The position numbers and the translations under genes were made by a program. Shown one piece after another: positions 26,371 through 47,141 of a stretch of DNA of 64,000 bases (positions within the stretch are counted from its first letter, which is position 1; each line of letters opens with the position of its first letter). The DNA is from Poseidonibacter lekithochrous (GTDB taxonomy: Bacteria > Campylobacterota > Campylobacteria > Campylobacterales > Arcobacteraceae): the NCBI RefSeq assembly GCF_013283835.1, contig NZ_CP054052.1, forward strand, positions 744,001-808,000, given 5' to 3'. The notes beneath the pieces are model-generated. The model had not been told where the DNA came from, did not search any database, and saw only the letters and a list, made by a program, of their open reading frames with translations.

Positions 26371-27573
26371 TTACTCAGAAATTCCAGAAACGATTTTGTA
26401 AGTATCGTTAGCAATAACGTACTCTTCATTTGTAGGAATAACAAAAATTCTACCAGATGAACCATTAGTAGAGATATCTCTAGCTTCACCAGATCTTTTG
26501 TTATTTTTAGTTGGGTCAATATTTAATCCCATGTAATCTAAACCAGCACAAACTTTTTCTCTGATTAATGCAGCATTTTCACCAATACCACCTGTGAAAC
26601 ATAATGCATCAACACCATCAAGTGCAGCAGCATAAGATCCAACATATTTTTTAATAATGTAAGCAATCATATCAACAGTTAATCTACATCTATCATCACC
26701 ATCTTCCATACCTTCAAGAACTTCTCTTAAGTCAGAAGATTTTCCAGAAATACCAACGATACCTGATTTTTTGTTAAGTACGTTTAACATTTCTTGGATA
26801 TCCCATTTTTCAGTATCCATCATGTATTGAATAGCACCTGCACCAATATCACCAGATCTAGTTCCCATCATTAAACCTTGAACTGGAGTAAGACCCATTG
26901 AAGTATCAATACATTTACCATCAAAGATAGCAGAAACAGAAGAACCATTTCCTAAGTGACAAACAATAATTCTAGTATTATGTTTTTTATCTAACATATT
27001 TCTAGCTTCATTTGATACGAAGTAGTGAGATGTACCATGGAATCCATATTTTCTAACACCATTTTTAGTGTATTGATCATAAGGAAGTGGATACATATAT
27101 GCGTAATCAGGCATAGTTTGGTGGAATGCAGTATCAAATACAGCTACATTTGGTTTACCTGGCATTAATTGTGCACAGATTTCCATACCCATAATGTTTG
27201 CTGGGTTATGTAATGGAGCTAAAGGTATTAATTCTTTCATTTTATCAATTACTTTATCTGTAACCATAACAGAACCAGCAAAGTCTTCCCCACCATGTAC
27301 TGCTCTATGTCCGATTGCTTCAATATCATCAATAGAGTTAATAACTTTACCTTCACCTTCAGTTAATGTTTTTAATACTAACTCAATTGCTTCCTTGTGA
27401 GTTGGCATAGAAACTTCTAATTTAACTTTTTGATCTTCACCAAATTCGTGTTTTAAAACACCATCAATTCCGATTCTTTCACATAGTCCTACTGCTAAAA
27501 CTTCCTTGTTTACTGGATTCATTAATTGATACTTTAATGATGAACTTCCTGCGTTTAAAATAAATACTAACAT
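26371..27573 (-). CDS. ackA: Acetate kinase 1
   Basis: 400 aa. It interconverts acetyl phosphate and ADP with acetate and ATP. N-terminal MLVFILNAGSSSLKYQLMNP and the signature regions VFDTAFHQTMP, YGFHGTSH, VCHLGNGSS, SMGLTPVQGLMMGTRSGD are intact, as is the C-terminal CFTGGIGENA. It is 33 bp after pta and shares its promoter, so pta-ackA is an operon for acetate activation or excretion. A second ackA lies on the other side of pta. Confidence 0.97.
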   Translation of the reverse strand: MLVFILNAGSSSLKYQLMNPVNKEVLAVGLCERIGIDGVLKHEFGEDQKVKLEVSMPTHKEAIELVLKTLTEGEGKVINSIDDIEAIGHRAVHGGEDFAGSVMVTDKVIDKMKELIPLAPLHNPANIMGMEICAQLMPGKPNVAVFDTAFHQTMPDYAYMYPLPYDQYTKNGVRKYGFHGTSHYFVSNEARNMLDKKHNTRIIVCHLGNGSSVSAIFDGKCIDTSMGLTPVQGLMMGTRSGDIGAGAIQYMMDTEKWDIQEMLNVLNKKSGIVGISGKSSDLREVLEGMEDGDDRCRLTVDMIAYIIKKYVGSYAAALDGVDALCFTGGIGENAALIREKVCAGLDYMGLNIDPTKNNKRSGEARDISTNGSSGRIFVIPTNEEYVIANDTYKIVSGISE

Positions 27574-27606: not shown

Positions 27607-28602
27607 TTATTTGATTTGAGTTGCAGTAATTGCAACTAAATTAGCGATATCTTCTACTGAACATCCTCTAGATAAGTCATTAACAGGTTTTGCTAAACCT
27701 TGAACAACTGGTCCATGAGCTTGTGCTCCTGCGAATCTTTGTACTAATTTATATCCAATATTTCCAGACTGTAAGTCAGGGAATACTAATACATTTGCTT
27801 TTCCAGCTACTTCTGAACCTGGTGCTTTTTTAGCTCCAATTGCTTCAACGATTGCTGCATCTGCTTGCATTTCACCATCAAAAGAGAAATCAACATTTCT
27901 TTCTTCTAATAAATCAACTGCAAATTGTACTTTATCAACTAATGGGTGCTTAGCACTCCCTTTTGTTGAGAAAGATAACATAGCAACTCTAGGATCAAGT
28001 CCAACCACTGAACTAGCTGTTGCTGCTGTTGCACAAGCGATATCTGCTAATTGCTCAGCATTAGGCTCAGGAATTACTGCACAGTCTGCAAATAAAATAA
28101 GACCATTGTCTCCAAATTTACCGTCAGCTGTTTCCATAATAAACGCAGATGATACTGTGTTAATACCAGGAGCTGTTTTGATTACATGAATTGCTGCTTT
28201 TAATACATCAGCAGTTGGTGAATTAGAACCTGCAACTAAACCGTCTGCATCTCCAAGTCTTACCATCATACAACCAAAGAATCTTGGCTCAGTAGTCATG
28301 ATTTCAGTAGCTTCTTCTCTAGATAAACCTTTTTTCTTTCTTAATTCAACTAATTCATCTATATATGTATCAATCTTATCAAATTTCTTAGGATCAATAA
28401 TTGTTGCTCCATCAATAAATGCACCACAAGCTGCTGCATCAGCTTTAATAGTTTCTTCATTTCCAATTAATACAACATTTGCTGTTTTCTCATCTAAAAC
28501 TTGTTGAGCAGCTTTTAATACTCTCTCATCTTCAGACTCTGGAAGAACAATTGTTCTTAACTGTAATTTTGCTTTTTCTTTAATGCTTTCAATTAAACCC
28601 AT
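27607..28602 (-). CDS. pta: Phosphate acetyltransferase
   Basis: 331 aa, the short form without the N-terminal DRTGG/CobB-like part. It converts acetyl phosphate and CoA to acetyl-CoA. Typical stretches are IVLPESEDERVLKAA, the PTB fold with VAGSNSPTADVLKAA, and the C-terminal VLVFPDLQSGNIGYKL and GLAKPVNDLSRGCS. It heads the pta-ackA-1 operon. Its promoter carries the direct-repeat motif shared with the acetate transporter genes of this region. Confidence 0.97.
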   Translation of the reverse strand: MGLIESIKEKAKLQLRTIVLPESEDERVLKAAQQVLDEKTANVVLIGNEETIKADAAACGAFIDGATIIDPKKFDKIDTYIDELVELRKKKGLSREEATEIMTTEPRFFGCMMVRLGDADGLVAGSNSPTADVLKAAIHVIKTAPGINTVSSAFIMETADGKFGDNGLILFADCAVIPEPNAEQLADIACATAATASSVVGLDPRVAMLSFSTKGSAKHPLVDKVQFAVDLLEERNVDFSFDGEMQADAAIVEAIGAKKAPGSEVAGKANVLVFPDLQSGNIGYKLVQRFAGAQAHGPVVQGLAKPVNDLSRGCSVEDIANLVAITATQIK

Positions 28603-28637: not shown

Positions 28638-28670
28638 ATTATAATTCAAAACCGTAGCATATAAGTAGCA
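28638..28670 (-). promoter_or_regulatory. pta-ackA promoter with 11-bp direct-repeat operator
   Basis: On the coding strand: TGCTAC-TTATA-TGCTAC, then 10 bp, then TATAAT (28638-28643). Repeats are at 28654-28659 and 28665-28670. The repeat takes the place of a -35 box. Same geometry as three other promoters in this window. Confidence 0.75.
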
Positions 28671-30142: not shown

Positions 30143-30154
30143 GGATCAATAAAA

Positions 30155-32609: not shown

Positions 32610-32773
32610 AAATATGCTTCCTATGTTTTAGTAATATACTAAATATTTATGTATATATTTTATCTAAAAATGCATAAGTAAATTATTATTAAATGAGTAA
32701 AAAAATGAAAATAAATTGCGTTTTTGTGGGAATAGTGTAAGAAAAATTGAATTTTAATAACTAGATAATAAAT

Positions 32774-32803
32774 TTTATCAAAGGAATAAATTCCTTTGAT
32801 AAA
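32774..32803 (-). terminator. Palindromic hairpin after actP-1
   Basis: 14-bp perfect inverted repeat (32774-32787 with 32790-32803), 7 bases after the symporter stop codon. Confidence 0.6.
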
Positions 32804-32809
32804 TAAGTA

Positions 32810-34459
32810 CTAGTGATCAACTGCTCCAGCTGAACCAATACCTGTATTTGCTCTAACATTTTGTGCTCTATACATTTCTTTTTCGTTTCTACCTCTTTCA
32901 GATGAATCTGTTTTAGAGAATAACCAAATTGAAACAAATGCTATAGTTACAGAGAATAAAGCAGGGTGTTTATAAGGGAATAAAGCTTCTTCATTTCCTA
33001 AAATAGAAACCCATACAATAGGTCCAACAATAACTAAAGTAATAGCAGTTAATAATCCAATTAATCCACCAATGAATGCACCTCTAGTCGTTAATCCTCT
33101 CCAGTAAATTGAAAGAAATAAAATTGGGAAGTTAGCAGATGCAGCAATACCGAATGCTAATCCAACCATGTATGCAATATTTTGCTCTTCAAATGCAATA
33201 CCTAAAGTAACACCAACAATACCAACAACAACAACTGTATATCTAGAGATTTTTACAATTTGCTCATCAGTAGCTTTTGGATTAATTACATTTGAGTATA
33301 AGTCATGCGAAATTGCTGAAGCACCTGCTAAAGTAAGTCCTGAAACAACCGCTAAAATAGTTGCAAAAGCAACAGCTGAAATAAATCCTAAGAATGCATT
33401 TCCACCTAACATATGTGATAAGTGAATAGATGCCATATTATTTCCACCGAATAATTTACCATCAACAAAATACTGTGCACCATCTGCTGAGTTTAAGAAT
33501 GCGATTGCACCAAAACCAACGATAGTAATAATAACCCAGAAGTAACCAACAAAACCAGTTGCATAAACAACAGATTTTCTAGCTTCTTTTGCATTACCAA
33601 CAGTAAAGAATCTCATAAGTACATGTGGAAGACCAGCAGTTCCTAACATTAATGCCATACCTAATGAAATAGCAGAGATTGGGTCAGAAATAAATCCACC
33701 TGGTGCTAAAATTGATTCACCAGCACTGTGATTTTCAACAGCTTTAACTGCTAAAGATTCAAATGAGAAATCAAATGAGTAAAGAACCATTATTGCCATG
33801 AATGATACACCTGTTAATAATAAACAAGCTTTAATAATTTGTACCCAAGTAGTTGCAAGCATACCACCAAAAGTTACATAAATAATCATCATAATACCAA
33901 CAAGAATTACAGCGAATTCATATTCCATACCAAATAATACTTGAATAAGTTTACCAGCTCCAACCATTTGAGCAATTAAGTATAAAACAACAACAGATAA
34001 AGTACCAAACGCAGCAAGAGTTCTAATCTCTTTTTGTCCTAATCTGTATGCAGCAATATCAGCAAATGTAAATTTACCTAAGTTTCTTAACTTCTCAGCC
34101 ATGAAGAATAAAATAATTGGCCATCCAACTAAGAATGAAACAGCATAGATAACTCCATCATAACCTTTTAAGTAAATTAAACCAGATACACCAAGGAATG
34201 CAGCAGCTGACATATAATCACCAGCAATTGCTAATCCATTTTGGAAACCAGTAATTCCTCCACCAGCAGTATAGAAATCAGATGCTGATTTCGTTCTTCT
34301 TGCAGCCCATACTGTTAAACCTAAAGTAAAAACAATAAAAACAAAGAACATAATAATCGCAGGTATATTAAGTTCTCTTTTTGTTGCTTCAAAAGATGCA
34401 TCTCCAGCAGCAAATGCACTTAAAGCTATAATTGAAATGATTGCTAAAATTTTTAACAT
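32810..34459 (-). CDS. actP: Cation/acetate symporter ActP-1
   Basis: 549 aa, sodium:solute symporter family with about 13 membrane helices. The N-terminus is a hydrophobic leader followed by the core helix with [20 protein letters not shown], and [12 protein letters not shown] and [11 protein letters not shown] are family-typical. It imports acetate and related short monocarboxylates with Na+. The first base of its ATG is shared with the DUF485 stop, as in the E. coli yjcH-actP pair. A paralogue of the same length lies 2.5 kb away. Confidence 0.93.
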
Positions 34460-34773
34460 TATAATAAATCCTTTACGTCTTCTTTAATATCATTAGTTAA
34501 GTCTTCAAACTCACCATTTGCTCTTTTAACATAAATAAGAGTTGTGATAAAACTAATTACTAAGATTGCTAAAGCAATAGGAAATGCTACTGTTGTAAGC
34601 CCTTCACCAATTTTTGTAGCTAATACTTCTTTGTTAAATGCAATTGTTAAAATAAATGCATAAAACATAACTAGTACAAAAATCCCAAGTTTAATACCAA
34701 AACTATTTCTTTTAGAAACTAGTTCTTGATACTTAGGATTATTTTCGATTCTTTCTACTAATTCGTCCTTCAT
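34459..34773 (-). CDS. DUF485 small membrane partner of ActP-1
   Basis: 104 aa from the chosen ATG at 34773, which follows GGAAG at good spacing and makes it equal in length to its paralogue; a longer frame to 34806 adds 11 residues without a ribosome site. Two membrane helices ([18 protein letters not shown] and [19 protein letters not shown]). DUF485 proteins (YjcH) accompany ActP; their function is unclear. Its promoter carries the acetate-island direct repeat. Confidence 0.9.
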
Positions 34774-34836
34774 GTTGCTTCCTTTTTTGTATAACTTAAT
34801 GTGCAAGTTATCCTGTGTACTTATTTTTATATAACT

Positions 34837-34869
34837 ATTTCTAATCTTTTATGTAGCAGTAGAATAGCA
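34837..34869 (-). promoter_or_regulatory. actP-1 promoter with 11-bp direct-repeat operator
   Basis: Coding strand: TGCTAT-TCTAC-TGCTAC, 10 bp, then AGAAAT (or TAGAAA one base earlier) as a weak -10. Repeats at 34853-34858 and 34864-34869. Same spacing as the pta promoter. Confidence 0.7.
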
Positions 34870-35274
34870 AATAAAAAAAATGTATGTTTATTATACATCC
34901 AAAAATTTACGAAAAGAAAGTATTAAATATTAAAATGTGTAAAAAATATGTTTTTTTTGTAGAAAGGTAACATAAAATACCATTATAAATTATCCTATTT
35001 AATTAATTATTTTAAGTTTTGTTTTATATATGGCTAAAATGGCTCTAAAGGATAAAAATTGTTACATAAGGTAATGTTTTTATAGTCTAATGTTACATAT
35101 ATGTTATATAATTTTATATAACCCTTTTATTCTATTGCTATTAATACTAATAAATAATAATAACAATGATTAATATTGCTAAGAAAATAGAAAAATGTTA
35201 TTTTTTTTATGTAACTTAAATTGTAAAATAGGGATTATTTGTATATTTTGAAGGTATTAGTTTTGAGCAAGGAA

Positions 35275-35301
35275 TCAAAGAGAGTGTACAACTCTCTTTG
35301 A
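35275..35301 (-). terminator. Hairpin after actP-2
   Basis: 11-bp perfect stem (35275-35285 with 35291-35301) with a 5-base loop, 20 bases after the stop codon. Confidence 0.7.
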
Positions 35302-35321
35302 AATGTACAATAAATGTACAA

Positions 35322-36971
35322 TTAGTGATCAACAGCTCCGTCAGCTCCGATTCCAGTTTCAGCTCTAACACTTTGTGCTTCATAAGCTTTAATTTCATCT
35401 TTTGCTCTTTGCGATTTATCAGTAATTGAGAAGAACCAAATACCAATGAATGCAACAGATACTGAGAATAGTGCAGGGTGTTTATAAGGGAAAATAGCTT
35501 CAGCATTTCCTAAAACAGATACCCATACAACAGGACCTAAAATTACAAGCACTACCGCAGTAAGTAATCCTAAGAACCCACCAATGAATGCTCCTCTAGT
35601 TGTTAACTTAGACCAGTAAATTGATAAGAATAAAATTGGGAAGTTAGCAGATGCAGCAATAGCAAATGCAAGACCAACCATAAATGCAATATTTTGGTGC
35701 TCGAAAGCAATACCTAATACAACACCAACTACACCAATTGCAATTGTTGCTCTTTTTGATACAGCAATTTCTTGCTCTTCAGTAGCATTAGTATTAATAA
35801 CAGATGCGTAAAGGTCATGTGAAATTGCAGATGCACCTGCAAGAGTAAGACCAGAAACAACCGCTAAAATAGTAGCAAATGCAACAGCTGAAATAAATCC
35901 TAAGAATACATTTCCACCAACAACATGTGATAAGTGAATTGCAGCCATATTATTTCCACCAAATAATTGACCATCAACAAAGTACTGTTGACCTTCTGGA
36001 GAGTTTAAGAATACAATTGCTCCAAGACCAATAATAGCAATAACTAAGTAGAAGTAACCAATAAATCCAGTTGCATAAACAACAGATTTTCTAGCTTCTT
36101 TAGCATTTCCAACAGTAAAGAATCTCATAAGAACGTGAGGTAAACCCGCAGTACCTAACATAAGAGCTAAACCAAGTGAAATTGCGGAGATTGGATCGGA
36201 TATAAATCCTCCAGGCGCCATAATATCTTGACCTAACGTATGAGTTTCAACAGCTTTTGTTGCTAATGCTTCGAATGAGAATCCAAAGTGACTTAATACC
36301 ATGTAACCCATGAAAGTTACACCAGAAAGTAATAATACAGCTTTAATAATTTGTACCCAAGTAGTTGCTAACATCCCACCAAAAGTAACATATACAATCA
36401 TCATAATTCCAACAAGGATAACTGCATATTCATATTCTAAACCAAATAATACTTGAATTAACTTTCCAGAACCAACCATTTGAGCAATAAGATATAAAGT
36501 AACAACTGCTAAAGAACCCGCAGCAGCAAGAGATCTAATCTCTTTTTGACCTAATCTATATGCAGCAATATCAGCGAATGTAAATTTACCTAAGTTTCTT
36601 AATTTTTCAGCCATTAAGAATAAAATTACAGGCCAACCAACTAAAAATCCAACAGCATAAACTAATCCATCATAACCTTTAAGGTATACTAAACCTGAAA
36701 GACCTAAGAAAGATGCAGCTGACATGTAGTCACCCGCAATTGCCATACCATTTTGGAAACCAGAAATTCCTCCACCTGCTGTATAGAAATCACTAGCAGA
36801 TTTAGTTCTTTTTGCAGCCCAGTAAGTAATAGCTAAAGTACCACCAACAAAGATAAAGAACATAATAATCGCAGGAATATTTAATTCTCTTTTAGTTGCC
36901 TCAAATGTTGCATCACCAGCAGCAAACATTGCTACAGCGAATACAGAAAGTAGTGCTAATATTTTTAACAT
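35322..36971 (-). CDS. actP: Cation/acetate symporter ActP-2
   Basis: 549 aa, close paralogue of ActP-1 with the same helix pattern and the same motifs ([42 protein letters not shown]) and the same C-terminal GADGAVDH-type tail. Very similar length and sequence point to tandem duplication of the DUF485-actP operon. The two promoters differ in their -10 boxes, so expression levels may differ. Imports acetate-type monocarboxylates; exact preference unknown. Confidence 0.93.
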
Positions 36972-37285
36972 TATAATAAATCCTTTACATCAGCTTTAAT
37001 TTCATTAGTTAAATCTTCAAACTCACCGTTTGCTCTTTTAACATAAATTAATGTTGTAATGAAACTTACTACAATAATTGCAGCCGCAACTGGGAATGCA
37101 ATTGTCATAACACCCTCACCAGTTAATGTTCCTAATACACTAGGATTAAATGCAATTGTTAAAATATATGCATAAAACATCACTAATACGAAAATCGATA
37201 ATTTCAGGGCGAAACCACTTCTTTTCTTAACTAACTCTTGATATTTAGAGTTATTTTTGATTCGTTGTACTAACTCATCATTCAT
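36971..37285 (-). CDS. DUF485 small membrane partner of ActP-2
   Basis: 104 aa, two membrane helices ([17 protein letters not shown] and [19 protein letters not shown]) with a Lys/Asp-rich tail that is nearly identical to that of its paralogue. Stop and actP-2 start overlap by one base (TAATG). First gene of the actP-2 operon, with a GGAG ribosome site upstream. Confidence 0.9.
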
Positions 37286-37329
37286 TTTTGCCTCCTTAGT
37301 TATTTTATTCGAATTAAATAATAATATTT

Positions 37330-37362
37330 CTTAAAGTAAAGAAACGTAGCATTTACGTAGCA
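37330..37362 (-). promoter_or_regulatory. actP-2 promoter with 11-bp direct-repeat operator
   Basis: Coding strand: TGCTAC-GTAAA-TGCTAC, 10 bp, then TTTAAG as a weak -10. Repeats at 37346-37351 and 37357-37362. Same spacing as the pta, actP-1 and DUF4212 promoters. Confidence 0.75.
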
Positions 37363-37474
37363 TTCGAATAAAAATAAGACTAATTATACATAGTAAAAAT
37401 TATATTTAACCATTATTAGTGTATTTTAAGTGTAATTTAATATTGGGAAAGATTATATGTAACTTTTAGAAGCT

Positions 37475-37509
37475 AAAAAAAGAGAAATAATTCTAAAATT
37501 ATTCTCTTC
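37475..37509 (-). terminator. Intrinsic terminator after exonuclease 2
   Basis: Minus strand: GAGAATAATT-TTAG-AATTATTTCTC stem with one bulge, then TTTTTTT. It begins at the stop codon of the exonuclease gene. Confidence 0.85.
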
Positions 37510-38142
37510 CTAATTCGTGTAAAAAGTTGTTTTTGCAGGAGTGATGTGTCTTAATTTTAAAAACATCATTGAAGTCATAATTGCATCATTTAGTGCATCA
37601 TGTTTTCCAAGTTCTGGAATATCTAATTCTTTTAAAATTGTGTCAAATTTTAAATCAATAAATTCATATTCACTAGTTTTTTTTCTTGTTTTATAATACA
37701 TTGAAGAAACTTCAATTGATTCATTTGGAAGTTTTATACCAATGAATTTTTTTGTATATTTTGATATCATTGCAATATCAAAATTTATGTAATATCCAAC
37801 AATAGGTCGATTTCCAATAAATTCTAATAACTCTTTTATTGCTACTTCTGGTTCAACTGCATTTTCTAAATCTATAGGTCTAATATGATGAATTTTAATT
37901 GATTCAGCGGTTACATTTTTTGAAGGTTTAACAAAAATATTAAGAGTTTTTCTCATTAATATTTTATTTTCTTTTATTAAAACTGCACCAATTGAAAGTA
38001 TTTCATCTTTTCTAGGACTAAGCCCAGTAGTTTCACAATCTAAGCATATATATTCATGTTCTTTAGGTTCATCAAATAGATATAGATATTTATCATCTTT
38101 TAGTTTTCTTTTATTCCAGCTTCTTAAAAAATTATCAAACAT
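37510..38142 (-). CDS. DnaQ-like 3'-5' exonuclease 2, partner of the DUF294 protein
   Basis: 210 aa, DEDDh exonuclease with CLDCETTGLSPRKDEILSIGA and HDALNDAIMTSMMF. Paralogue of the 206-aa protein at 30155-30775, including the N-terminal extension with YLFDEPKEHEYI. It overlaps the upstream DUF294 gene by one base. Same module as the first pair; substrate unknown. Confidence 0.85.
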   Translation of the reverse strand: MFDNFLRSWNKRKLKDDKYLYLFDEPKEHEYICLDCETTGLSPRKDEILSIGAVLIKENKILMRKTLNIFVKPSKNVTAESIKIHHIRPIDLENAVEPEVAIKELLEFIGNRPIVGYYINFDIAMISKYTKKFIGIKLPNESIEVSSMYYKTRKKTSEYEFIDLKFDTILKELDIPELGKHDALNDAIMTSMMFLKLRHITPAKTTFYTN

Positions 38143-39959
38143 TACGAAATCTTATCAATTTTAAATGTGAAGTTAATGAATTTTTTAAAATCACTAACAA
38201 TTTTGAAAGAATCTTTTAATAAATCTCTTTCAATTTTTCCTAAAGTATGAGTATCTATTTCATTTGTAATTTTTTTATTTTCTTGAACATATTCAAGTTG
38301 AGCTTTTAATCTTAATGTATTTACTACATCAAAAGCCTCTTGTAATTCTGCTGCTTGTTCTTTTTCTAGAACTTTTCTTTGCTCTAAAAGTTTTATTCTT
38401 TTAACTGTAGTTGTTTCTCTAATTCGCTCACGTAAAGCAAGTGATCTTATACCTTGAACTATTGGGAAAACAGCAGTTTTTTTAATATCAATATAATGTA
38501 CTTTTGTCATAAAGTTTGCAATTGTACTTGGTGTATCAAAAGTTAGAGTGGCTTTTGCAAAATATGCCATAAACACATCTTTATCATGTAGCTTATAGAA
38601 TAAATCATCTTTTAGATTAATTAATAAATCTTTATCTCCAGCAACTGCAAAAGAGTCAAAGAATATAGCTAAATCCATGTAGTTTTGCATATCTGGAGCT
38701 TCAATCCATCTTGCAGTTTCACTTTTATATTCACTAACAGTTTTACACCAAAATGGATTTGAAACCATAATATTACCTTCACATGGTGGATAACCAAAAT
38801 CAATTAATGTTTCAGTGATTTTTTCCATAAAAGGTCTGTATTCATTAACATCAACTCCATCTTTAATTACTAGTGCATTATCTTGGTCAGTTTTCATGAT
38901 TTGTTCATTTCTACCTTCACTTCCCATTACAATAAAACAAGCATTTTTTTGTAAGTCTTCTGGTAGAATTAATTTATATAGTTTCTTATAAACTTTTGTA
39001 TTTAACTGTCCAATTAAATTTGATATGTGATTAACTTTTACACCTTTTGCATGTAAGGATTTGATTATATTTAGAAGGTCTTTACTTGCAGATTTTAACT
39101 CTTCAATATTTTTAGATTTTTTAATTTGTGTATCTACTACATAAGTATTATTTGCAAAATGAGATAAAACATCAATTTGCTCTAGTATTCCTAACATATC
39201 ACCATTTGAGTTTACAACTCCAACTCTTTTGATATTTCTTTTTATTAATACTGAAAGTGCATCGAATAAATAGTCATCATTGAATACAGTCATTAATGGA
39301 AATATTGCAATATCACTAACTGGAATAGATAAATCTCTTCCTTCTAATAAAACTTTTACTTTTAAAAGAGAATCTGTAATAATTCCATATTCGTTATTAT
39401 CACCTTTTATAAGAATTGTAGAAGTTTTATATTCCATTGATTTTTGAATTGCATCAATTAGTTTTGTATGTGGTTCTACAATACATGCATCATGTATTAA
39501 TGAATCATCAACTTTTGCAATCATAAATGAAGACAATTCAGAAGTGTATTCTTTATCTTTTAATGTTTTTAATTTATTCACTAAATCTTTTAAGAAGAAA
39601 TCTTTAAAGGCTTGATTCTCTTCTATTAGTTTTAAAAATGTATTTTTTTCTAATTCGTAACAAATTAGATCTTCATGTACTTTAAATGTATTTTTACATT
39701 CGCCATAAATAAGTGAGTTTGCATCAAAGGAGTCTTCTTGATGATAATCCATTACAATCTCATCATCACTGTATTCATATACAGTTCCCTTAATAATAAT
39801 AAAAAAGTGGTTTGAGATTTTCTCCGGACTAATTAAAACAGAATCTTTCGCATAATAAGCAATATCCATGTGTTTTATACAAATATCAGATTGCTCTTGA
39901 TTTAGAACTTCAAAGGGGTGGATGTTTGAAAGATAGGCTTCTTGATCTTGTAAACTCAT
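38142..39959 (-). CDS. cNMP-binding/CBS/DUF294 nucleotidyltransferase-like signalling protein 2
   Basis: 605 aa. Same domain order as the paralogue at 30768-32609: cNMP-binding-like N-terminus, CBS pair, DUF294 with GSEGRNEQIMKTDQDNA, and the C-terminal helical domain. The N-terminus has diverged most, so the two may sense different ligands. It lies next to the VC_2705-type symporter, the usual neighbour of such proteins in other proteobacteria. Confidence 0.88.
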   Translation of the reverse strand: MSLQDQEAYLSNIHPFEVLNQEQSDICIKHMDIAYYAKDSVLISPEKISNHFFIIIKGTVYEYSDDEIVMDYHQEDSFDANSLIYGECKNTFKVHEDLICYELEKNTFLKLIEENQAFKDFFLKDLVNKLKTLKDKEYTSELSSFMIAKVDDSLIHDACIVEPHTKLIDAIQKSMEYKTSTILIKGDNNEYGIITDSLLKVKVLLEGRDLSIPVSDIAIFPLMTVFNDDYLFDALSVLIKRNIKRVGVVNSNGDMLGILEQIDVLSHFANNTYVVDTQIKKSKNIEELKSASKDLLNIIKSLHAKGVKVNHISNLIGQLNTKVYKKLYKLILPEDLQKNACFIVMGSEGRNEQIMKTDQDNALVIKDGVDVNEYRPFMEKITETLIDFGYPPCEGNIMVSNPFWCKTVSEYKSETARWIEAPDMQNYMDLAIFFDSFAVAGDKDLLINLKDDLFYKLHDKDVFMAYFAKATLTFDTPSTIANFMTKVHYIDIKKTAVFPIVQGIRSLALRERIRETTTVKRIKLLEQRKVLEKEQAAELQEAFDVVNTLRLKAQLEYVQENKKITNEIDTHTLGKIERDLLKDSFKIVSDFKKFINFTFKIDKIS

Positions 39960-40130: not shown

Positions 40131-42026
40131 TTAGTGATCAACTGCCTCACCAGCACCTGAAGGAATTCTGATCTTTTCAACTAGATCTTGAATCTCTTGT
40201 GGTGGTTCTGGAGTCATTCTTGAAATAACTACTGCCACGATTAAGTGAAGTAATGTTCCAATTGTACCAATACCTGTAGGTGCAATTCCTAAGAAGTAAT
40301 CTTCTTTAGCTCCACCTAAGAATACGAAGTAGATAATGTAACCGAATGTGAAAATTAAACCAGTTAAAATACCAGCAATCGCACCTTCTTTATTCATTCT
40401 CTTATCGAATACACCAAGGATAATAGTTGGGAAGAATGCTGCTGCCGCTAAACCAAATGCGAACGCAACAACTTGTGCAACAAATCCAGGAGGGTTAATC
40501 CCTAAGTAACCAGCAACACAAATTGCAGCTACTGCTGAAACTCTTGCCCACATTAACTCAGTTTTTTCGTTTAATGTAGATTTACCAGTTTCTTTATCTT
40601 TAAAGATTACTTGTCCCATAAGGTCATGTGAAATTGCTGATGCAATTACAAGTAATAAACCTGCTGCTGTAGATAATGCTGCTGCAAGACCACCAGCTGC
40701 GATGAATGCGATTACCCAGTTAGGTAAGTTTGCAATCTCTGGATTTGCAAGTACCATGATATCTCTATCAACGTATAACTCATTTGCAATTCCGTTTCCT
40801 TTAGCTAATTCAGCTTCACCAGCTGGACCTTTAGCATTAGTTACAAGTCTATGACCGTCTTCTGCTCTTTTTTCACCATCAAATGCTGGTTTACCTTTTG
40901 CACCATCGAATGCTTTTCCAGTAGCGTATTGGATTTTACCATCGCCATTTCTATCATTCCATGCAATAAGACCACCATTTTCCCATGTTCTGAACCAGTT
41001 ACCATCATTTGGTGTACCATCAGAGTGAGATAATTCACCGTTTACAAATGCTTTGTATTCAGTGTTTTGTAAGTTCTTAATTAAGTTAACTCTTGAGAAA
41101 GAAGCAACTGAAGAAATAGTTGTATACATAATAGCAATAAATACTAATGCCCATCCTGCAGAGATTCTAGCATCTTTAACAGTTGGTACTGTAAAGAATC
41201 TAACAATAACGTGTGGAAGACCAGCTGTTCCTAACATTAACGCAGTTGTTAACATGAACATGTTCCATAAGTTACCTGGTTGAGTATAATCACTAAACCC
41301 TAAATCAGAAACCGCGGTATCTAGTGCATGCAGTAGATATGTTCCTTCTGGAATAACTTGTACACCTGAATCAAATGCAAATGAAGTTGTAGCAAAAATA
41401 CCTAATTGAGGTAAGAATGTATCAGTAACTTGTAATGATAAGAAAATTGCTGGAATCATGTAAGCAAAAATCATAACAACATATTGTGCAACTTGAGTAT
41501 AAGTAATACCTTTCATACCACCAAGAACAGAGTAGAAGAATACAATAGCCATACCAATAAGTACACCTGTATTTACATCAACTTGTAAGAATCTTGAGAA
41601 TACGATACCAACACCTCTCATTTGTCCAGCAACATATGTGAACGAAACGAAAATAACAGCAACAACTGCAACTAATCTAGCTGCATCTGAATAATATCTG
41701 TCACCAACGAAATCTGGAACTGTAAACTTACCAAACTTTCTTAAGTATGGAGCTAATAACATTGCTAGTAGAACGTATCCACCAGTCCAACCCATTAAAT
41801 AAGCACCACCATCAGAACCTTTGAAAGAAATGATTCCTGCTAATGAAATGAATGAAGCTGCTGACATCCAGTCTGCTGCTGTCGCCATACCATTTGCTAC
41901 TGGGTGAACCCCTCCACCTGCAACATAGAAATCTTTAGTAGATCCAGCTTTTGCCCAAAGTGCAATACCAATATAAACTGCGAACGAAATACCTACGAAT
42001 AGGTAAATTAATGATTGTAATTCCAT
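40131..42026 (-). CDS. Sodium:solute symporter, VC_2705 subfamily
   Basis: 631 aa, with about 13 membrane helices. The core FYVAGGGVHPVANGMATAAD and LPHVIVRFFTV are SSS-family; the long loop at about 320-420, which contains DRNGDGKIQYATGK, is typical of the VC_2705 subfamily. These transporters are found beside DUF4212, DUF294 and acetyl-CoA synthetase genes and are thought to import acetate or other short carboxylates. It is 11 bp after its DUF4212 partner. It differs clearly from the two ActP proteins. Confidence 0.92.
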   Translation of the reverse strand: MELQSLIYLFVGISFAVYIGIALWAKAGSTKDFYVAGGGVHPVANGMATAADWMSAASFISLAGIISFKGSDGGAYLMGWTGGYVLLAMLLAPYLRKFGKFTVPDFVGDRYYSDAARLVAVVAVIFVSFTYVAGQMRGVGIVFSRFLQVDVNTGVLIGMAIVFFYSVLGGMKGITYTQVAQYVVMIFAYMIPAIFLSLQVTDTFLPQLGIFATTSFAFDSGVQVIPEGTYLLHALDTAVSDLGFSDYTQPGNLWNMFMLTTALMLGTAGLPHVIVRFFTVPTVKDARISAGWALVFIAIMYTTISSVASFSRVNLIKNLQNTEYKAFVNGELSHSDGTPNDGNWFRTWENGGLIAWNDRNGDGKIQYATGKAFDGAKGKPAFDGEKRAEDGHRLVTNAKGPAGEAELAKGNGIANELYVDRDIMVLANPEIANLPNWVIAFIAAGGLAAALSTAAGLLLVIASAISHDLMGQVIFKDKETGKSTLNEKTELMWARVSAVAAICVAGYLGINPPGFVAQVVAFAFGLAAAAFFPTIILGVFDKRMNKEGAIAGILTGLIFTFGYIIYFVFLGGAKEDYFLGIAPTGIGTIGTLLHLIVAVVISRMTPEPPQEIQDLVEKIRIPSGAGEAVDH

Positions 42027-42037
42027 CTTGTTAACTC

Positions 42038-42292
42038 CTATTCACTAACGCCGTATTTTTCGTCGATACTTGTCATTACTTTAACGTAAATGAAGATTAA
42101 TATAACGAATACGTAAATTGCACCTTGTTGTGCAAACCAATAACCTAATTTAACACCACTAATTTCAATAGTGTTAAGTTCATTAATGAATAAAATCCCA
42201 CATCCAAAAGATACAACGAACCAAACTACTAATAGTTTAAGAATCATTGCAATGTTTTCTTTCCAATATGCTTGTGCTTTTTCTGGACTCAT
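42038..42292 (-). CDS. DUF4212 small membrane partner of the symporter
   Basis: 84 aa with two membrane helices (LLVVWFVVSFGCGILFI and GAIYVFVILIFIYVKVM) and the typical N-terminal YWKENIAMI. DUF4212 is the usual small partner gene of VC_2705-type symporters, as DUF485 is for ActP. It heads the operon; its promoter has two copies of the direct-repeat operator. Confidence 0.9.
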   Translation of the reverse strand: MSPEKAQAYWKENIAMILKLLVVWFVVSFGCGILFINELNTIEISGVKLGYWFAQQGAIYVFVILIFIYVKVMTSIDEKYGVSE

Positions 42293-42353: not shown

Positions 42354-42436
42354 AGTATAGTAAGTGTAGATAGCAAAAAGATAGCAATTAAAAAAGAATT
42401 TAAAAAAATTATTTTGAACGTAGTATTAGAGTAGCA
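42354..42436 (-). promoter_or_regulatory. DUF4212-symporter promoter with two direct-repeat operators
   Basis: Proximal site, coding strand: TGCTAT-CTTTT-TGCTAT (42370-42386), 10 bp, then TATACT (42354-42359). A second site TGCTAC-TCTAA-TACTAC lies at 42420-42436, exactly 50 bp further upstream, on the same face of the helix. A further single TAGCG word lies at 42448-42452. Confidence 0.75.
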
Positions 42437-42470: not shown

Positions 42471-43133
42471 TTAAACAGAATAATATCTGTCAATTTTATA
42501 ACCCAATCCTCTGATATTTTTTATAAAGTCTTCTTTTAGAGCTTTTTTAAGTCTTGATATTTCAGCTCTTATTGTAGGATTGTCGATGTTCTCCCCATCC
42601 CAGATGTCAATTCTGAATCTCTCGAAGTCTACAATCATATTAATATTAAGTGCTAAGATATGAATTATTTCTAATTGCTTCTTAGTTAGACTTTGTGGTT
42701 CACCATTAAAATATAGAGTTTGATTATCTTTTGAATAAGAATAATTCTCTGAGAATCTAATATGTGATGTATTATTTTGTTCTTTTTTAAGAATTAGATT
42801 AATTTTAATAGCCAATTCTTCTAAGTGGAATGGTTTTTTAAGATATTCTCTAGCTCCAAGCTCATATGCCTTAGAAATGTCTTCTATATCTATTAGCGCA
42901 GAAATAAATATAGTAGGAATATATACTTTTTTAGTATTAAGTTCTTGTAGTATAGTAAAACCATCTTTTGTTGGAACATTTATATCTAGTATTAATAAAT
43001 CATAAGTACTATCAATATTATCCAACACCTCTTGCCCATCAGTAAAACTTTCAACCATATGTCCAATATTTTTTAAATATTCACAAATGGCATTGTTTAA
43101 CATTAATTCATCTTCAAGTAGTAGTATCTTCAT
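42471..43133 (-). CDS. OmpR/PhoB-family response regulator of the acetate island
   Basis: 220 aa. Receiver domain with the acidic pair in LLLEDE, phospho-acceptor Asp at about residue 50 (LLILDINVP) and Lys in KKPF; C-terminal winged helix (about 125-217) with TRAEISRLKKAL-like recognition region and RGLGYKI. Such regulators bind direct repeats about one helical turn apart, which is what the acetate promoters in this window have. It overlaps the kinase gene by 20 bp. Target assignment is inference. Confidence 0.93.
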   Translation of the reverse strand: MKILLLEDELMLNNAICEYLKNIGHMVESFTDGQEVLDNIDSTYDLLILDINVPTKDGFTILQELNTKKVYIPTIFISALIDIEDISKAYELGAREYLKKPFHLEELAIKINLILKKEQNNTSHIRFSENYSYSKDNQTLYFNGEPQSLTKKQLEIIHILALNINMIVDFERFRIDIWDGENIDNPTIRAEISRLKKALKEDFIKNIRGLGYKIDRYYSV

Positions 43134-44697
43134 TTATCTTAAACCTATATGTAAATTTTGTTTCTTTGTCGTTTGATTCTAAATTAATCAATACAGAACT
43201 TTTATCGCAAATATCTTTTACGATCTTTAATCCTAAACCAAATCCTCCCCTTGCTGAGTTTTCTCTATAGAAGTCATCAAAAATTCTATTTTTATAATCT
43301 ATTTTTTTTGAATTAGTTGAAACAGAAAACTCTATTTCACTGTCATTAACATAATCAAGTCTTACAAATACTGGTGATTTAGGGTAAGAATATTTGATTG
43401 CATTTGATAAGTTATTATCAATTACCCTTTGTAATTCAGTTTTATTAAATTTTATATAAATATCATCTTGTATATTACTTACAAAGTATAATGAATTAGA
43501 TATAGCAATTTCATCAAAGAAATCTAATCTATTTATTAGTATCTCTGTATAATTTAAATACTCTTTTTCATAAACTACACGATCTTTTTTAATAAGATAA
43601 GATAAATCATCATAAATGTATTGAATTATTTTAGAACCAGATTCAATGTTAATTATATATTTGTTATTAGGAATATTCATTTTTAATAAGTCAATATTTG
43701 TTTGAATAATTGATAGTGGAGTATTAATCTCATGTACTGAGTTTTTAATAAAAGTTTTTTGTGATTCTATTAGTTTTGTTAATTCTTTAGTTTTCTCATC
43801 TACTTTATACTCAAGATTTTTATTTAAATCTTCTAACATATGAGTTTTTAGTTTTATATTATTCATTGCATCTGTTGCATAATTTGCAATTACTTTAAAT
43901 TCTCCAAAGATAATTCTATTTTGATTGATTGGATCATCATTATCTTGAGACTCTTTAAAATATTTACCTATTTCTTTTACATCATTGACAATCAATATGG
44001 TTGCATTTTTATAAATGAAAATTGAATATAAAACAAGCATTATTGTTAAAGACGTGATTTGAAGAGTATAATCAGACATTTTTTGATTGTATTCTTCATT
44101 TTTTTCTTTTACTAGTTTTTCAATTTCGTCTAAATATACACCTTTACCAATAGTCCATTGCCATTTGTCATAAGAGTTTGCATAAGATATTTTTTGAACA
44201 TTTTTACTAATATCAGGTTTATACCATATATAATCAACATAACCGCCTATATATCGCTTTGAGGCTTTGATTAGGTCATATATAACTCTTTTACCTGTAT
44301 TGTCTATCATATTAATTCTATTGTCACCAATACTGTCTTTTGCTACAGGATGAAATAACAATGTTCCATCATAAGAATAGATAAAAATGTAATCACTAAT
44401 ATCTCTTTTACTTTTCATTTTTTCAATTGCTAGTAAAATATCTTTTTTGATTTCATCTTCTGGTTTAATATTTTCGTATTTGTTATGATAGTATTCGATA
44501 AAACTGATTACTGAGTTTATATCATTTTTAATTAGTTCTTTTTGATTGCTTGTAAAGTCTGATTTTAGAGTACTGATTTTTTCTTGTAATTCATCATGAG
44601 CATTTTCTATTATTATAAATGTAAAAAATGAGATTAATACAACAATGAATAGAATGCTGTATACAATAAGGTGATATAAGCTTTTCGCTTTAAACAT
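43114..44697 (-). CDS. Membrane sensor histidine kinase with Cache sensor domain
   Basis: 527 aa. Membrane helices at about 9-31 and 210-229 enclose a periplasmic domain (about 35-205) with FHPVAKDSIGDNRINMID, GGYVDYIWYKP and WTIGKGVYLDEI, the pattern of single Cache (sCache_2) domains. Members of that group often bind short carboxylates such as acetate, propionate or lactate. The kinase core has H322 in SVHEINTPLSII, the N box NNLSNAIKYS and G box GGFGLGLKIV. It phosphorylates the overlapping response regulator. That acetate is the signal is inferred from domain and context. Confidence 0.92.
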   Translation of the reverse strand: MFKAKSLYHLIVYSILFIVVLISFFTFIIIENAHDELQEKISTLKSDFTSNQKELIKNDINSVISFIEYYHNKYENIKPEDEIKKDILLAIEKMKSKRDISDYIFIYSYDGTLLFHPVAKDSIGDNRINMIDNTGKRVIYDLIKASKRYIGGYVDYIWYKPDISKNVQKISYANSYDKWQWTIGKGVYLDEIEKLVKEKNEEYNQKMSDYTLQITSLTIMLVLYSIFIYKNATILIVNDVKEIGKYFKESQDNDDPINQNRIIFGEFKVIANYATDAMNNIKLKTHMLEDLNKNLEYKVDEKTKELTKLIESQKTFIKNSVHEINTPLSIIQTNIDLLKMNIPNNKYIINIESGSKIIQYIYDDLSYLIKKDRVVYEKEYLNYTEILINRLDFFDEIAISNSLYFVSNIQDDIYIKFNKTELQRVIDNNLSNAIKYSYPKSPVFVRLDYVNDSEIEFSVSTNSKKIDYKNRIFDDFYRENSARGGFGLGLKIVKDICDKSSVLINLESNDKETKFTYRFKINEDTTT

Positions 44698-44797: not shown

Positions 44798-44874
44798 TGG
44801 CGCGGTAGAAGGGACTCGAACCCTCGACCTCCTGCGTGACAGGCAGGCGTTCTAACCAACTAAACTACTACCGC
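44798..44874 (-). tRNA. tRNA-Asp (GTC), cassette 1
   Basis: 77 bases with encoded CCA; acceptor GCGGTAG/CTACCGC, discriminator G, anticodon GTC. Last gene of the array in transcription order. Confidence 0.97.
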
Positions 44875-44967
44875 GCTTAAAGATATTAAATACATGAGTA
44901 TTTAAAAGTCACTTGATAAAAATCTTTAAAAAATCTAATGCTACTGCATTTTGTGATTGTTTAAAAA

Positions 44968-45043
44968 TGGTGGTCGATGCAAGACTCGAACTTGCGACGT
45001 CTACCTTGTAAGGGTAGCGCTCTACCAACTGAGCTAATCGACC
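44968..45043 (-). tRNA. tRNA-Val (TAC), cassette 1
   Basis: 76 bases with encoded CCA; acceptor GGTCGAT/ATCGACC, anticodon TAC. Confidence 0.97.
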
Positions 45044-45059
45044 ATAATATTAATTGTGT

Positions 45060-45134
45060 TGGTGACCCCTAGGAGACTCGAACTCCTGTGATTGGAATGA
45101 AAATCCAAGATCCTAACCGCTAGATGAAGGGGCC
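45060..45134 (-). tRNA. tRNA-Glu (TTC), cassette 1
   Basis: 75 bases with encoded CCA; acceptor GGCCCCT/AGGGGTC with one wobble pair, anticodon TTC. A likely substrate of the MnmA enzymes encoded in this window. Confidence 0.97.
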
Positions 45135-45189
45135 AACATTATAATAATAAATTTTGTGATTGTTTGTATATTCAAATCATAAATTTGAA

Positions 45190-45265
45190 TGGTGACCCGT
45201 GATGGATTCGAACCATCGGCCACCTCCTTAAAAGGGAGATGCTCTACCAGCTGAGCTAACGGGTC
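45190..45265 (-). tRNA. tRNA-Lys (TTT), cassette 1
   Basis: 76 bases with encoded CCA; acceptor GACCCGT/ACGGGTC, anticodon TTT. A likely MnmA substrate. Confidence 0.97.
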
Positions 45266-45320
45266 ACAATGAAAATAATTGTATTTAAAAATATGATCTA
45301 AATCATTTTTTTAAATTTAG

Positions 45321-45397
45321 TGGCGCGGTAGAAGGGACTCGAACCCTCGACCTCCTGCGTGACAGGCAGGCGTTCTAACCAACTAAACTACTACCGC
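45321..45397 (-). tRNA. tRNA-Asp (GTC), cassette 2
   Basis: 77 bases, identical in form to the other Asp copies; CCA encoded. Confidence 0.97.
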
Positions 45398-45492
45398 ACT
45401 ATTAATACTAAACACTAGGTATTTAGAAGTCACTTTGAAAAAATGAATCTTTAAAAAATCTAATGCCACTGCATTTTGTGATTATTTAAAAA

Positions 45493-45568
45493 TGGTGGTC
45501 GATGCAAGACTCGAACTTGCGACGTCTACCTTGTAAGGGTAGCGCTCTACCAACTGAGCTAATCGACC
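45493..45568 (-). tRNA. tRNA-Val (TAC), cassette 2
   Basis: 76 bases; 2 bases from the Glu gene, so the two must be separated by processing. Confidence 0.97.
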
Positions 45569-45570
45569 GA

Positions 45571-45645
45571 TGGTGACCCCTAGGAGACTCGAACTCCTGT
45601 GATTGGAATGAAAATCCAAGATCCTAACCGCTAGATGAAGGGGCC
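45571..45645 (-). tRNA. tRNA-Glu (TTC), cassette 2
   Basis: 75 bases; CCA encoded. Confidence 0.97.
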
Positions 45646-45687
45646 ATCGTTTAACATTATATTGTGAATTCAAATCATAAATTTGAA

Positions 45688-45763
45688 TGGTGACCCGTGA
45701 TGGATTCGAACCATCGGCCACCTCCTTAAAAGGGAGATGCTCTACCAGCTGAGCTAACGGGTC
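45688..45763 (-). tRNA. tRNA-Lys (TTT), cassette 2
   Basis: 76 bases; CCA encoded. Confidence 0.97.
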
Positions 45764-45780
45764 ACAATGAAAAAAAATAG

Positions 45781-45857
45781 TGGCGCGGTAGAAGGGACTC
45801 GAACCCTCGACCTCCTGCGTGACAGGCAGGCGTTCTAACCAACTAAACTACTACCGC
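45781..45857 (-). tRNA. tRNA-Asp (GTC), cassette 3
   Basis: 77 bases; CCA encoded. Confidence 0.97.
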
Positions 45858-45952
45858 ACTATTAATACTAAACACTAGGTATTTAGAAGTCACTTTGAAA
45901 AAATGAATCTTTAAAAAATCTAATGCCACTGCATTTTGTGATTATTTAAAAA

Positions 45953-46028
45953 TGGTGGTCGATGCAAGACTCGAACTTGCGACGTCTACCTTGTAAGGGT
46001 AGCGCTCTACCAACTGAGCTAATCGACC
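45953..46028 (-). tRNA. tRNA-Val (TAC), cassette 3
   Basis: 76 bases; CCA encoded. Confidence 0.97.
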
Positions 46029-46030
46029 GA

Positions 46031-46105
46031 TGGTGACCCCTAGGAGACTCGAACTCCTGTGATTGGAATGAAAATCCAAGATCCTAACCGCTAGATGAAG
46101 GGGCC
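46031..46105 (-). tRNA. tRNA-Glu (TTC), cassette 3
   Basis: 75 bases; CCA encoded. Confidence 0.97.
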
Positions 46106-46147
46106 ATCGTTTAACATTATATTGTGAATTCAAATCATAAATTTGAA

Positions 46148-46223
46148 TGGTGACCCGTGATGGATTCGAACCATCGGCCACCTCCTTAAAAGGGAGATGC
46201 TCTACCAGCTGAGCTAACGGGTC
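46148..46223 (-). tRNA. tRNA-Lys (TTT), cassette 3
   Basis: 76 bases; CCA encoded. Confidence 0.97.
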
Positions 46224-46240
46224 ACAATGAAAAAAAATAG

Positions 46241-46317
46241 TGGCGCGGTAGAAGGGACTCGAACCCTCGACCTCCTGCGTGACAGGCAGGCGTTCTAACC
46301 AACTAAACTACTACCGC
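46241..46317 (-). tRNA. tRNA-Asp (GTC), cassette 4
   Basis: 77 bases; CCA encoded. Confidence 0.97.
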
Positions 46318-46411
46318 ACTATTAATACTAAATACTAGGTATTTAGAAGTCACTTTGAAAAATGAATCTTTAAAAAATCTAATGCCACTGCATTTTGTGA
46401 TTATTTAAAAA

Positions 46412-46487
46412 TGGTGGTCGATGCAAGACTCGAACTTGCGACGTCTACCTTGTAAGGGTAGCGCTCTACCAACTGAGCTAATCGACC
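46412..46487 (-). tRNA. tRNA-Val (TAC), cassette 4
   Basis: 76 bases; CCA encoded. Confidence 0.97.
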
Positions 46488-46489
46488 GA

Positions 46490-46564
46490 TGGTGACCCCT
46501 AGGAGACTCGAACTCCTGTGATTGGAATGAAAATCCAAGATCCTAACCGCTAGATGAAGGGGCC
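46490..46564 (-). tRNA. tRNA-Glu (TTC), cassette 4
   Basis: 75 bases; CCA encoded. Confidence 0.97.
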
Positions 46565-46606
46565 ATCGTTTAACATTATATTGTGAATTCAAATCATAAA
46601 TTTGAA

Positions 46607-46682
46607 TGGTGACCCGTGATGGATTCGAACCATCGGCCACCTCCTTAAAAGGGAGATGCTCTACCAGCTGAGCTAACGGGTC
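46607..46682 (-). tRNA. tRNA-Lys (TTT), cassette 4
   Basis: 76 bases; CCA encoded. Confidence 0.97.
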
Positions 46683-46699
46683 ACAATGAAAAAAAATAG

Positions 46700-46776
46700 T
46701 GGCGCGGTAGAAGGGACTCGAACCCTCGACCTCCTGCGTGACAGGCAGGCGTTCTAACCAACTAAACTACTACCGC
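46700..46776 (-). tRNA. tRNA-Asp (GTC), cassette 5
   Basis: 77 bases; CCA encoded. Confidence 0.97.
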
Positions 46777-46870
46777 ACTATTAATACTAAATACTAGGTA
46801 TTTAGAAGTCACTTTGAAAAATGAATCTTTAAAAAATCTAATGCCACTGCATTTTGTGATTATTTAAAAA

Positions 46871-46946
46871 TGGTGGTCGATGCAAGACTCGAACTTGCGA
46901 CGTCTACCTTGTAAGGGTAGCGCTCTACCAACTGAGCTAATCGACC
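46871..46946 (-). tRNA. tRNA-Val (TAC), cassette 5
   Basis: 76 bases; CCA encoded. Confidence 0.97.
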
Positions 46947-46948
46947 GA

Positions 46949-47023
46949 TGGTGACCCCTAGGAGACTCGAACTCCTGTGATTGGAATGAAAATCCAAGAT
47001 CCTAACCGCTAGATGAAGGGGCC
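46949..47023 (-). tRNA. tRNA-Glu (TTC), cassette 5
   Basis: 75 bases; CCA encoded. Confidence 0.97.
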
Positions 47024-47065
47024 ATCGTTTAACATTATATTGTGAATTCAAATCATAAATTTGAA

Positions 47066-47141
47066 TGGTGACCCGTGATGGATTCGAACCATCGGCCACC
47101 TCCTTAAAAGGGAGATGCTCTACCAGCTGAGCTAACGGGTC
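47066..47141 (-). tRNA. tRNA-Lys (TTT), cassette 5
   Basis: 76 bases; the first tRNA transcribed, about 31 bases after the predicted transcription start. Confidence 0.97.

Follow-up and report, generated by a model that had tools for sequence, protein, structure and literature searches.

In the single-contig, 3.57 Mb genome of Poseidonibacter lekithochrous, a sensor histidine kinase (HK; 43114..44697, minus strand) and a response regulator (RR; 42471..43133, minus strand) precede a run of genes for acetate-type transport. We analysed this pair in a window of 64,000 nucleotides (contig NZ_CP054052.1, positions 744,001 to 808,000), and feature coordinates below are those of the window. The pair is probably an unnamed regulator of monocarboxylate (acetate-type) uptake and activation, which would act through a carboxylate-sensing Cache domain and a TGCTA-N6-TGCTA box in at least eight Campylobacterota families. 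Gene order, the box, its position in promoters and its conservation were computed; we infer binding of the box by the RR, activation and a carboxylate signal. The association of box, pair and symporter is best supported by their recurrence in families other than Arcobacteraceae, at an HK identity of about 29–47%.

The HK carries sCache_2 (98.6 bits), HisKA (30.9 bits) and HATPase_c (54.7 bits) domains, all above the cut-off of Pfam. The first of these, against a cut-off of 25, marks a single periplasmic Cache domain at residues 51–198 (44104..44547, minus strand). The RR was tested as OmpR/PhoB type, and both the receiver (Response_reg, 75.2 bits) and the winged-helix domain (Trans_reg_C, 40.3 bits) are present above the Pfam cut-off. 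The two genes overlap by 20 bp. The domains are those named in the original prediction, and the pair also stands, as claimed there, at the head of an island with its transporters transcribed in one direction: after the RR gene the minus strand carries, in order, DUF4212, SSF, DUF294, exonuclease, two DUF485-ActP pairs, DUF294, exonuclease, AckA, Pta and AckA. In the mechanism that we propose, the ligand of the Cache domain is most likely a small carboxylate such as acetate, pyruvate or lactate, and its binding would change the phosphorylation of the regulator. Once phosphorylated, the OmpR/PhoB-type regulator would form a tandem dimer on TGCTA-N6-TGCTA and activate DUF4212-SSF, DUF485-ActP and pta; at most promoters of DUF4212 and pta this box would overlap the -35 region.

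The TGCTA box and its conservation

The box was found in an alignment of the gap between the RR and DUF4212 genes (73 sequences), where two near-invariant TGCTA elements stand 11 bp apart amid variable DNA. The exact pattern occurs four times in the window, against 0.19 expected and a maximum of two in 200 first-order Markov sequences. All four copies lie on the coding (minus) strand and precede DUF4212-SSF (TGCTATCTTTTTGCTA, 42371..42386), the first and second DUF485-ActP pairs (TGCTACGTAAATGCTA, 37347..37362, and TGCTATTCTACTGCTA, 34854..34869) and pta (TGCTACTTATATGCTA, 28655..28670). The whole genome holds 16 exact boxes, none of them within an open reading frame of at least 100 codons, and no copy of the reversed pattern. 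A one-mismatch box on the minus strand, 50 bp upstream of the DUF4212 box (TGCTACTCTAATACTA, 42421..42436), may be due to chance.

The predicted targets behind these boxes, all on the minus strand, are the DUF4212 small subunit of the SSF symporter (42038..42292; PF13937, 118.5 bits, and TIGR03647), the VC_2705-family SSF symporter itself (40131..42026; TIGR03648, 791.7 bits), two DUF485 proteins (36971..37285 and 34459..34806), two ActP permeases (35322..36971 and 32810..34459; NF006903, 898.3 and 868.2 bits) and the short form of phosphate acetyltransferase (Pta; 27607..28602; TIGR00651, 380 bits). An acetate kinase gene 3' of pta (26371..27573; TIGR00016, 498.2 bits) probably shares its operon. 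The first DUF294 gene, which encodes a cNMP/CBS/DUF294 protein (38142..39959), has no box of its own in any of 75 scored loci. Much of the island looks duplicated over 26371–39959: the DUF485-ActP pair, the DUF294-exonuclease pair and the acetate kinase each occur twice, around a single pta. On the other side, 5' of the HK gene, lies an array of 20 tRNA genes (44798–47141, minus strand) made of five tandem copies of Lys-Glu-Val-Asp.

Conservation was followed in 104 Arcobacteraceae genomes, of which 88 are better assemblies. The HK has a match at E<=1e-60 in 87 of the 104 and in 75 of the 88. There is one match per genome, that of G059 being split in two pieces, and in G074, G100, G102 and G103 the match covers the kinase half only. 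Among the matches listed, the RR is 77–100% identical at island loci and 71–72% identical in genus g20. His322, Asn432 and the glycines 485, 487 and 489 of the GFGLGL motif are invariant in all 77 aligned HK rows. We extracted 89 loci from 85 genomes; four genomes are doubled (L016/L070, L018/L106, L019/L099 and L020/L109), and the same four duplicates are included in the HK alignment. The order HK, RR, then DUF4212 and/or SSF is found in 76 of the 89 loci, and the remaining 13 (L111–L123) are divergent. The gap between RR and DUF4212/SSF contains an exact box in 73 of the 76 loci (69 of 72 genomes after removal of duplicates) and a one-mismatch box in the other three. In loci L065–L071, L075–L077, L079, L081, L089, L093 and L100 the SSF is 30–49% identical to that of the window and DUF4212 is 36–65% identical or undetected, with an RR identity of 83–87%, as if the symporter had been swapped or were diverging fast.

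Exact sites are present in 103 of the 104 genomes. Over the 89 loci, 190 boxes lie on the island strand and 17 on the opposite strand, and the reversed pattern is absent. Boxes were scored for each gene at 15–260 bp upstream, with genes less than 300 bp from a locus end excluded. A box precedes DUF4212 in 70 of 72 cases and Pta in 44 of 49, SSF in three of 76 and the second DUF294 in one of 56; five boxes fell to no gene. None was found upstream of RR (0/88), the first or second exonuclease (0/74 and 0/49), ActP (0/64 and 0/52), AckA (0/61 and 0/25), CinA (0/57) or LhgO (0/17). Autoregulation was considered and rejected: no exact box lies 5' of HK in the 78 scored loci, and the best upstream site in the window has two mismatches. 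In locus L049, which the contig-edge filter removed, a box lies 39 bp before the HK match.

Outside Arcobacteraceae the same arrangement recurs. Across the phylum, 97 of the 397 genomes scanned and 32 of the 68 genera gave kinase matches, and we examined the neighbourhoods of 40 of the 59 matches that lie outside Arcobacteraceae (97 minus 38), which represent seven families. In 35 of these 40 loci the pair precedes ActP or DUF4212/SSF, where preceding means within 6.5 kb (two opposite-strand genes lie in between in L237), and 31 of the 40 have an exact box in the interval between RR and symporter. In the 40 loci 38 boxes lie on the gene strand and two on the opposite strand, and the reversed pattern occurs once. 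Among the distant loci that were listed gene by gene, a gene of about 440–480 codons (porin-like by eye) often stands first, and DUF294 and the exonuclease often follow.

The position of the box suggests that the regulator is an activator. In the DUF4212 promoter of the window, the likely -10 element TATACT (42354..42359, minus strand) starts 16 nt past the start of the second TGCTA. Among distinct promoters, a TATAAT-like hexamer stands at this offset in 48 of 66 for DUF4212 and in 40 of 50 for Pta; it was taken as the best match within a range of 28 positions, so the measure of the offset is partly self-selected. If the hexamer is the -10 element, the half-sites would lie near -39 to -35 and -28 to -24, an arrangement known from PhoB-type activators.

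Several observations weigh against this reading of the pair and its box. When one mismatch is allowed, the window contains six sites against 5.0 expected, which is no enrichment, so that the case for the box depends on its exact copies and their conservation. Only around half of the promoters of DUF485 have an exact box (29 of 67 for the first gene and 25 of 52 for the second), at no fixed distance from the hexamer. The G1 box of the HK is non-canonical: DxGxG at 461–466 is found in none of the 77 rows, position 461 being T or S, 462 variable and 463 S (residues 460–467 correspond to 43297–43320 of the window). In eight of the divergent Arcobacteraceae loci no symporter lies 3' of the pair, with at least 7.8 kb read after HK. 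The remaining five lie on short contigs, and two of them, L113 and L123, have a DUF485 gene directly after the HK or the pair, which may indicate a link to ActP. In one genus (L120–L122) the kinase has no Cache domain and the island is absent, and no Pta match was found in its four genomes. Finally, the acetyl-CoA synthetase gene acs was counted in the original prediction among genes of this kind; no acs was found among the scanned window genes. The match of the genome above the TIGR02188 cut-off (1015.6 bits) lies at G000:C1:2384066-2385931, about 1.6 Mb from the window, and has neither an exact box in the fetched locus with 1.5 kb flanks nor a near match upstream. Elsewhere in the genome, ten one-mismatch hits at an exact spacing of 495 bp (G000:C1:509794-514264) suggest that a unit of this length is repeated in tandem ten times or more.

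The Cache domain and its ligand

The genome holds 38 sCache_2 matches, so a Cache domain by itself says little. The AlphaFold model of residues 32–212 has a mean predicted local distance difference test score (pLDDT) of 89.3, and it matches 4k08 and 2qhk (Z 19.2) as well as 4exo and 5g4y (Z 18.9). In the structure search single-Cache domains score between 17.9 and 19.2, and the following row scores 13.3. Sequence score and fold both fit membership of sCache_2 (98.6 bits; Z 19.2 to 4k08). The fold was tried as a guide to the ligand and rejected: TlpB, associated with urea, scores almost equal to the carboxylate binders, so the fold does not decide on the ligand. The structural comparison envisaged in the original prediction thus bore out the single-Cache fold and its likeness to carboxylate binders, with urea-associated TlpB nearly equal to them.

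PscD binds C2 and C3 acids via Tyr90, His103, Tyr143 and Lys156, beside which lie Trp92, Trp145 and Phe126 (PMC5062169). In a pairwise alignment the window kinase has Y103, H116, Y156, K169, F105, W158 and I139 at the PscD pocket; five of the seven are identical, and all four hydrogen-bonding residues are present. Y107 aligns with the tyrosine of pyruvate-bound 4EXO, and F105, Y107 and I139 are as in 4EXO. At the Tyr143 position 4EXO has a phenylalanine in these alignments, unlike the structural statement in PMC5062169. Most of the pocket is kept in the 77 Arcobacteraceae rows: Y103 in 73, F105 in 76, Y107 in 72, Y156 and W158 in 77 and K169 in 74. A carboxylate is a plausible ligand.

Acetate as the ligand is not established, and a C3 acid is at least as likely. 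The histidine of the pocket is not conserved: H116 is kept in just 11 of the 77 rows, the others including Y (32), N (17), S (9), D (7) and A (1). Of 22 distant rows, 17 have D in place of H116; Trp158 and Lys169 are likewise each conserved in 17 and both lost in five. The variants of H116 were compared with the divergent DUF4212/SSF proteins; by eye they seem to track lineage, and nothing was drawn from the comparison. A. butzleri reportedly fails to grow on acetate yet grows on lactate, pyruvate, malate and fumarate (PMC2147049); a similar report names strain ED-1 as an exception (PMC9927503). In addition, acs lacks the box, and in L259, L265 and L268 kinases without a Cache or periplasmic domain (by eye) adjoin ActP; the kinases of L266 and L267 probably lack it too, to judge from frame length. 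The loss of pocket residues also counts against the proposed reading of the pair. The notion of the pair as an acetate switch is partly supported: control of the acetate-type transporters and of pta, predicted from gene order, the common box and recurrence in seven other families, is well supported by comparison, and acetate as the ligand is unproven in view of the growth of A. butzleri, the unconserved histidine, the acs gene without a box and the kinases that lack a Cache domain.

Since the kinases of L259, L265 and L268 adjoin ActP without a periplasmic domain, the kinase could read its symporter instead of or besides a free ligand, so that transport would be the signal in a split version of the CrbS design, where a single protein is both symporter and kinase; we regard this as doubtful. 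Cache pockets with His, Asp, Tyr or Asn, together with kinases that have no Cache domain, form a natural series for asking what the kinase senses.

Extent of the regulon and choice of regulator

Boxes also stand at genes beyond acetate metabolism, which counts against a regulator confined to acetate-type uptake. Elsewhere in this genome, exact boxes precede the genes for a lactate permease of LctP type (PF02652), a GPR1/FUN34/YaaH protein, an LdhH-like Fe-S protein, a GntR regulator and a solute-binding protein of family 3. The product of a further boxed gene (L159), of TAT type, resembles by eye a protein that follows a box in five relatives; one of these, in L195, is of sulfite-oxidase type (PF00174 and PF03404), and the others were named by eye. 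In G003 a box is followed by the small subunit of a NiFe hydrogenase; the hydrogenase gene of L217 was named by eye. On A. butzleri microarrays, the genes ackA-pta, AB0504 (which encodes a sodium:solute symporter), a hydrogenase gene and an aldehyde dehydrogenase gene change together in mutants of sigma2 and sigma7 (PMC3445524). Counted from pta (AB0495), AB0504 stands where the SSF of the island is expected. Because of these boxed genes and the joint changes in A. butzleri, the acetate genes seem to lie within a wider programme for organic acids and electron donors. A recurring exact box (L183, L187, L193, L199, L212 and L222) is flanked by a gene on the plus strand and by the 3' end of one on the minus strand; it has no evident target gene and may belong to the promoter of a small RNA.

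The pair may accordingly be a broader regulator of carbon and electron-donor use, in which acetate uptake would be one output among several and the signal may be pyruvate, lactate or some other metabolite. We treat this as a tentative but serious alternative. The lactate permease, the YaaH-type, Fe-S and sulfite-oxidase-like proteins and the hydrogenase subunit speak for it, as do the co-regulation in A. butzleri and the match of F105, Y107 and I139 to pyruvate-bound 4EXO. However, the extra box sites were inspected gene by gene in the window genome and, at fetched sites, in six relatives only, and the RR is no more than their putative regulator; outside Arcobacteraceae the view of the regulon is limited to the neighbourhoods of the HK.

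The linked RR is the best candidate for the protein that binds the box, because of linkage and because in G003, G008, G015 and G016 there is one RR match at E<=1e-55 and the symporter box is kept. In G070, which has no RR ortholog, a short Pta is present without a box. Alternatively, the box could be the site of a whole subgroup of regulators with a TIRAE core, so that a regulator linked to a FIST-domain kinase, or another one, would control the acetate promoters in place of the linked RR. The core, which lies in the presumed recognition helix, also occurs in two RRs that accompany FIST-domain kinases (L161 and L162; 54% and 51% identical). In two genomes (L213 and L223) a box lies 5' of an aldehyde-dehydrogenase-like gene (named by eye), and the gene beside the FIST kinase in the window genome is PF00171. 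Boxes occur in genomes with no RR match at E<=1e-55, with 10 (reversed pattern 0) in G070, 31 (7) in G038, 20 (6) in G040 and 9 (4) in G037, and the short Pta has a box in G019 (91% complete) and G096 (86%), where the RR matches are at paralog level only. All of these count against exclusive binding by the linked RR. Against the subgroup, the sole RR match of G003, G008, G015 and G016 is the linked one, with weaker paralogs not excluded, and in other families the box usually lies directly after the linked RR gene. We judge control by another TIRAE regulator to be unlikely. A search for Pta in 26 relatives whose HK-RR ortholog is absent, incomplete or divergent gave ten matches. Seven of them, of the long type, have no box and were rejected as a clean control for being too distant; the remaining three are the short Pta genes of G070, G019 and G096.

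It is very improbable that an extracytoplasmic function (ECF) sigma factor controls the genes and that the box is part of its promoter, since the 11-bp spacing of the repeat is unlike that of -35 and -10 elements, and the TATAAT-like hexamer stands at one distance in 48 of 66 DUF4212 promoters. The changes of ackA-pta and AB0504 in the sigma2 and sigma7 mutants of A. butzleri are the evidence on its side (PMC3445524). That the pair is a passenger, kept in order and not regulating its neighbours, is hardly credible given the conserved box between RR and symporter (73 of 76 and 31 of 40 loci), even with eight divergent Arcobacteraceae loci that have related pairs and no adjoining symporter.

Comparison with known systems

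We found no description of this pair or box among the records listed from the open-licence literature. One of the closest known systems is CrbS/CrbR (MxtR/ErdR) of Pseudomonas and Vibrio, which shares with the window an acetate set with ActP, a co-transcribed small membrane protein, a nucleotidyltransferase-domain protein and a conserved promoter motif (PMC5715377). In Pseudomonas fluorescens a regulator of the LuxR family acts with an inverted repeat on the CrbS/R set, which comprises acs, pflu1813-actP and a nucleotidyltransferase-domain protein (PMC5715377). The components differ in type. CrbS/CrbR combines an SLC5/STAC kinase, a LuxR-family regulator, the ACTU inverted repeat and acs as a target (PMC5715377), whereas the window pair combines a Cache kinase, an OmpR-type regulator and a direct repeat, with acs lacking the box. 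In the Pfam scan the HK has no SSF match and carries sCache_2 in place of the SLC5 symporter domain, and the RR has Trans_reg_C and is not of the LuxR/NarL type. No ACTU-type inverted repeat was found in the window, a weak test for which we wrote the pattern ourselves from Table 4 of PMC5715377. For a CrbS-like kinase, one weak SSF match (19.8 bits) lies outside the island, from a search in which no CrbS/CrbR query sequence was used. This match belongs to a kinase of 982 amino acids with HATPase_c (L001:7340-10288), beside a divergent DUF3369-HD response regulator, and the kinase is possibly of SLC5 type with an unusual partner. The best reading, by analogy, is that the pair works like CrbS/CrbR and is not a member of that system. 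The original prediction had placed it there in lieu of CrbS/CrbR; this stands as an analogy, with overlapping target sets, but the types of kinase, regulator and motif differ and an SLC5-type kinase may exist elsewhere in the genome.

In its logic the pair resembles MctS/MctR of Rhizobium leguminosarum, in which an SSF permease for monocarboxylates is under the control of a Cache kinase; other rhizobia have the SLC5/STAC kinase RpuS next to the same permease (PMC9100948). A Cache kinase beside an SSF permease is also the arrangement in the window, and the MctS model aligns over HK residues 9–223. However, the NF052443 equivalog scores 113 bits against a cut-off of 700, and the match is confined to the sensor half. 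PscD (5g4y) and Adeh_3718 (4k08) share the single-Cache fold with the HK, which also has the four residues that form hydrogen bonds in PscD (PMC5062169); in the window kinase Trp92 is replaced by Phe, Phe126 by Ile and Asn94 by Tyr. The domains of PscD, McpP and Adeh_3718 belong to chemoreceptors, whose output is chemotaxis, whereas the output in the window is a kinase. Within the same phylum, BumS/BumR of Campylobacter jejuni is likewise a pair for short-chain fatty acid signalling, but BumS has a PAS domain and acts as a phosphatase only (PMC11796366). In summary, these comparisons suggest that regulators of acetate uptake arose repeatedly in evolution, each time with another sensor placed on an overlapping set of target genes.

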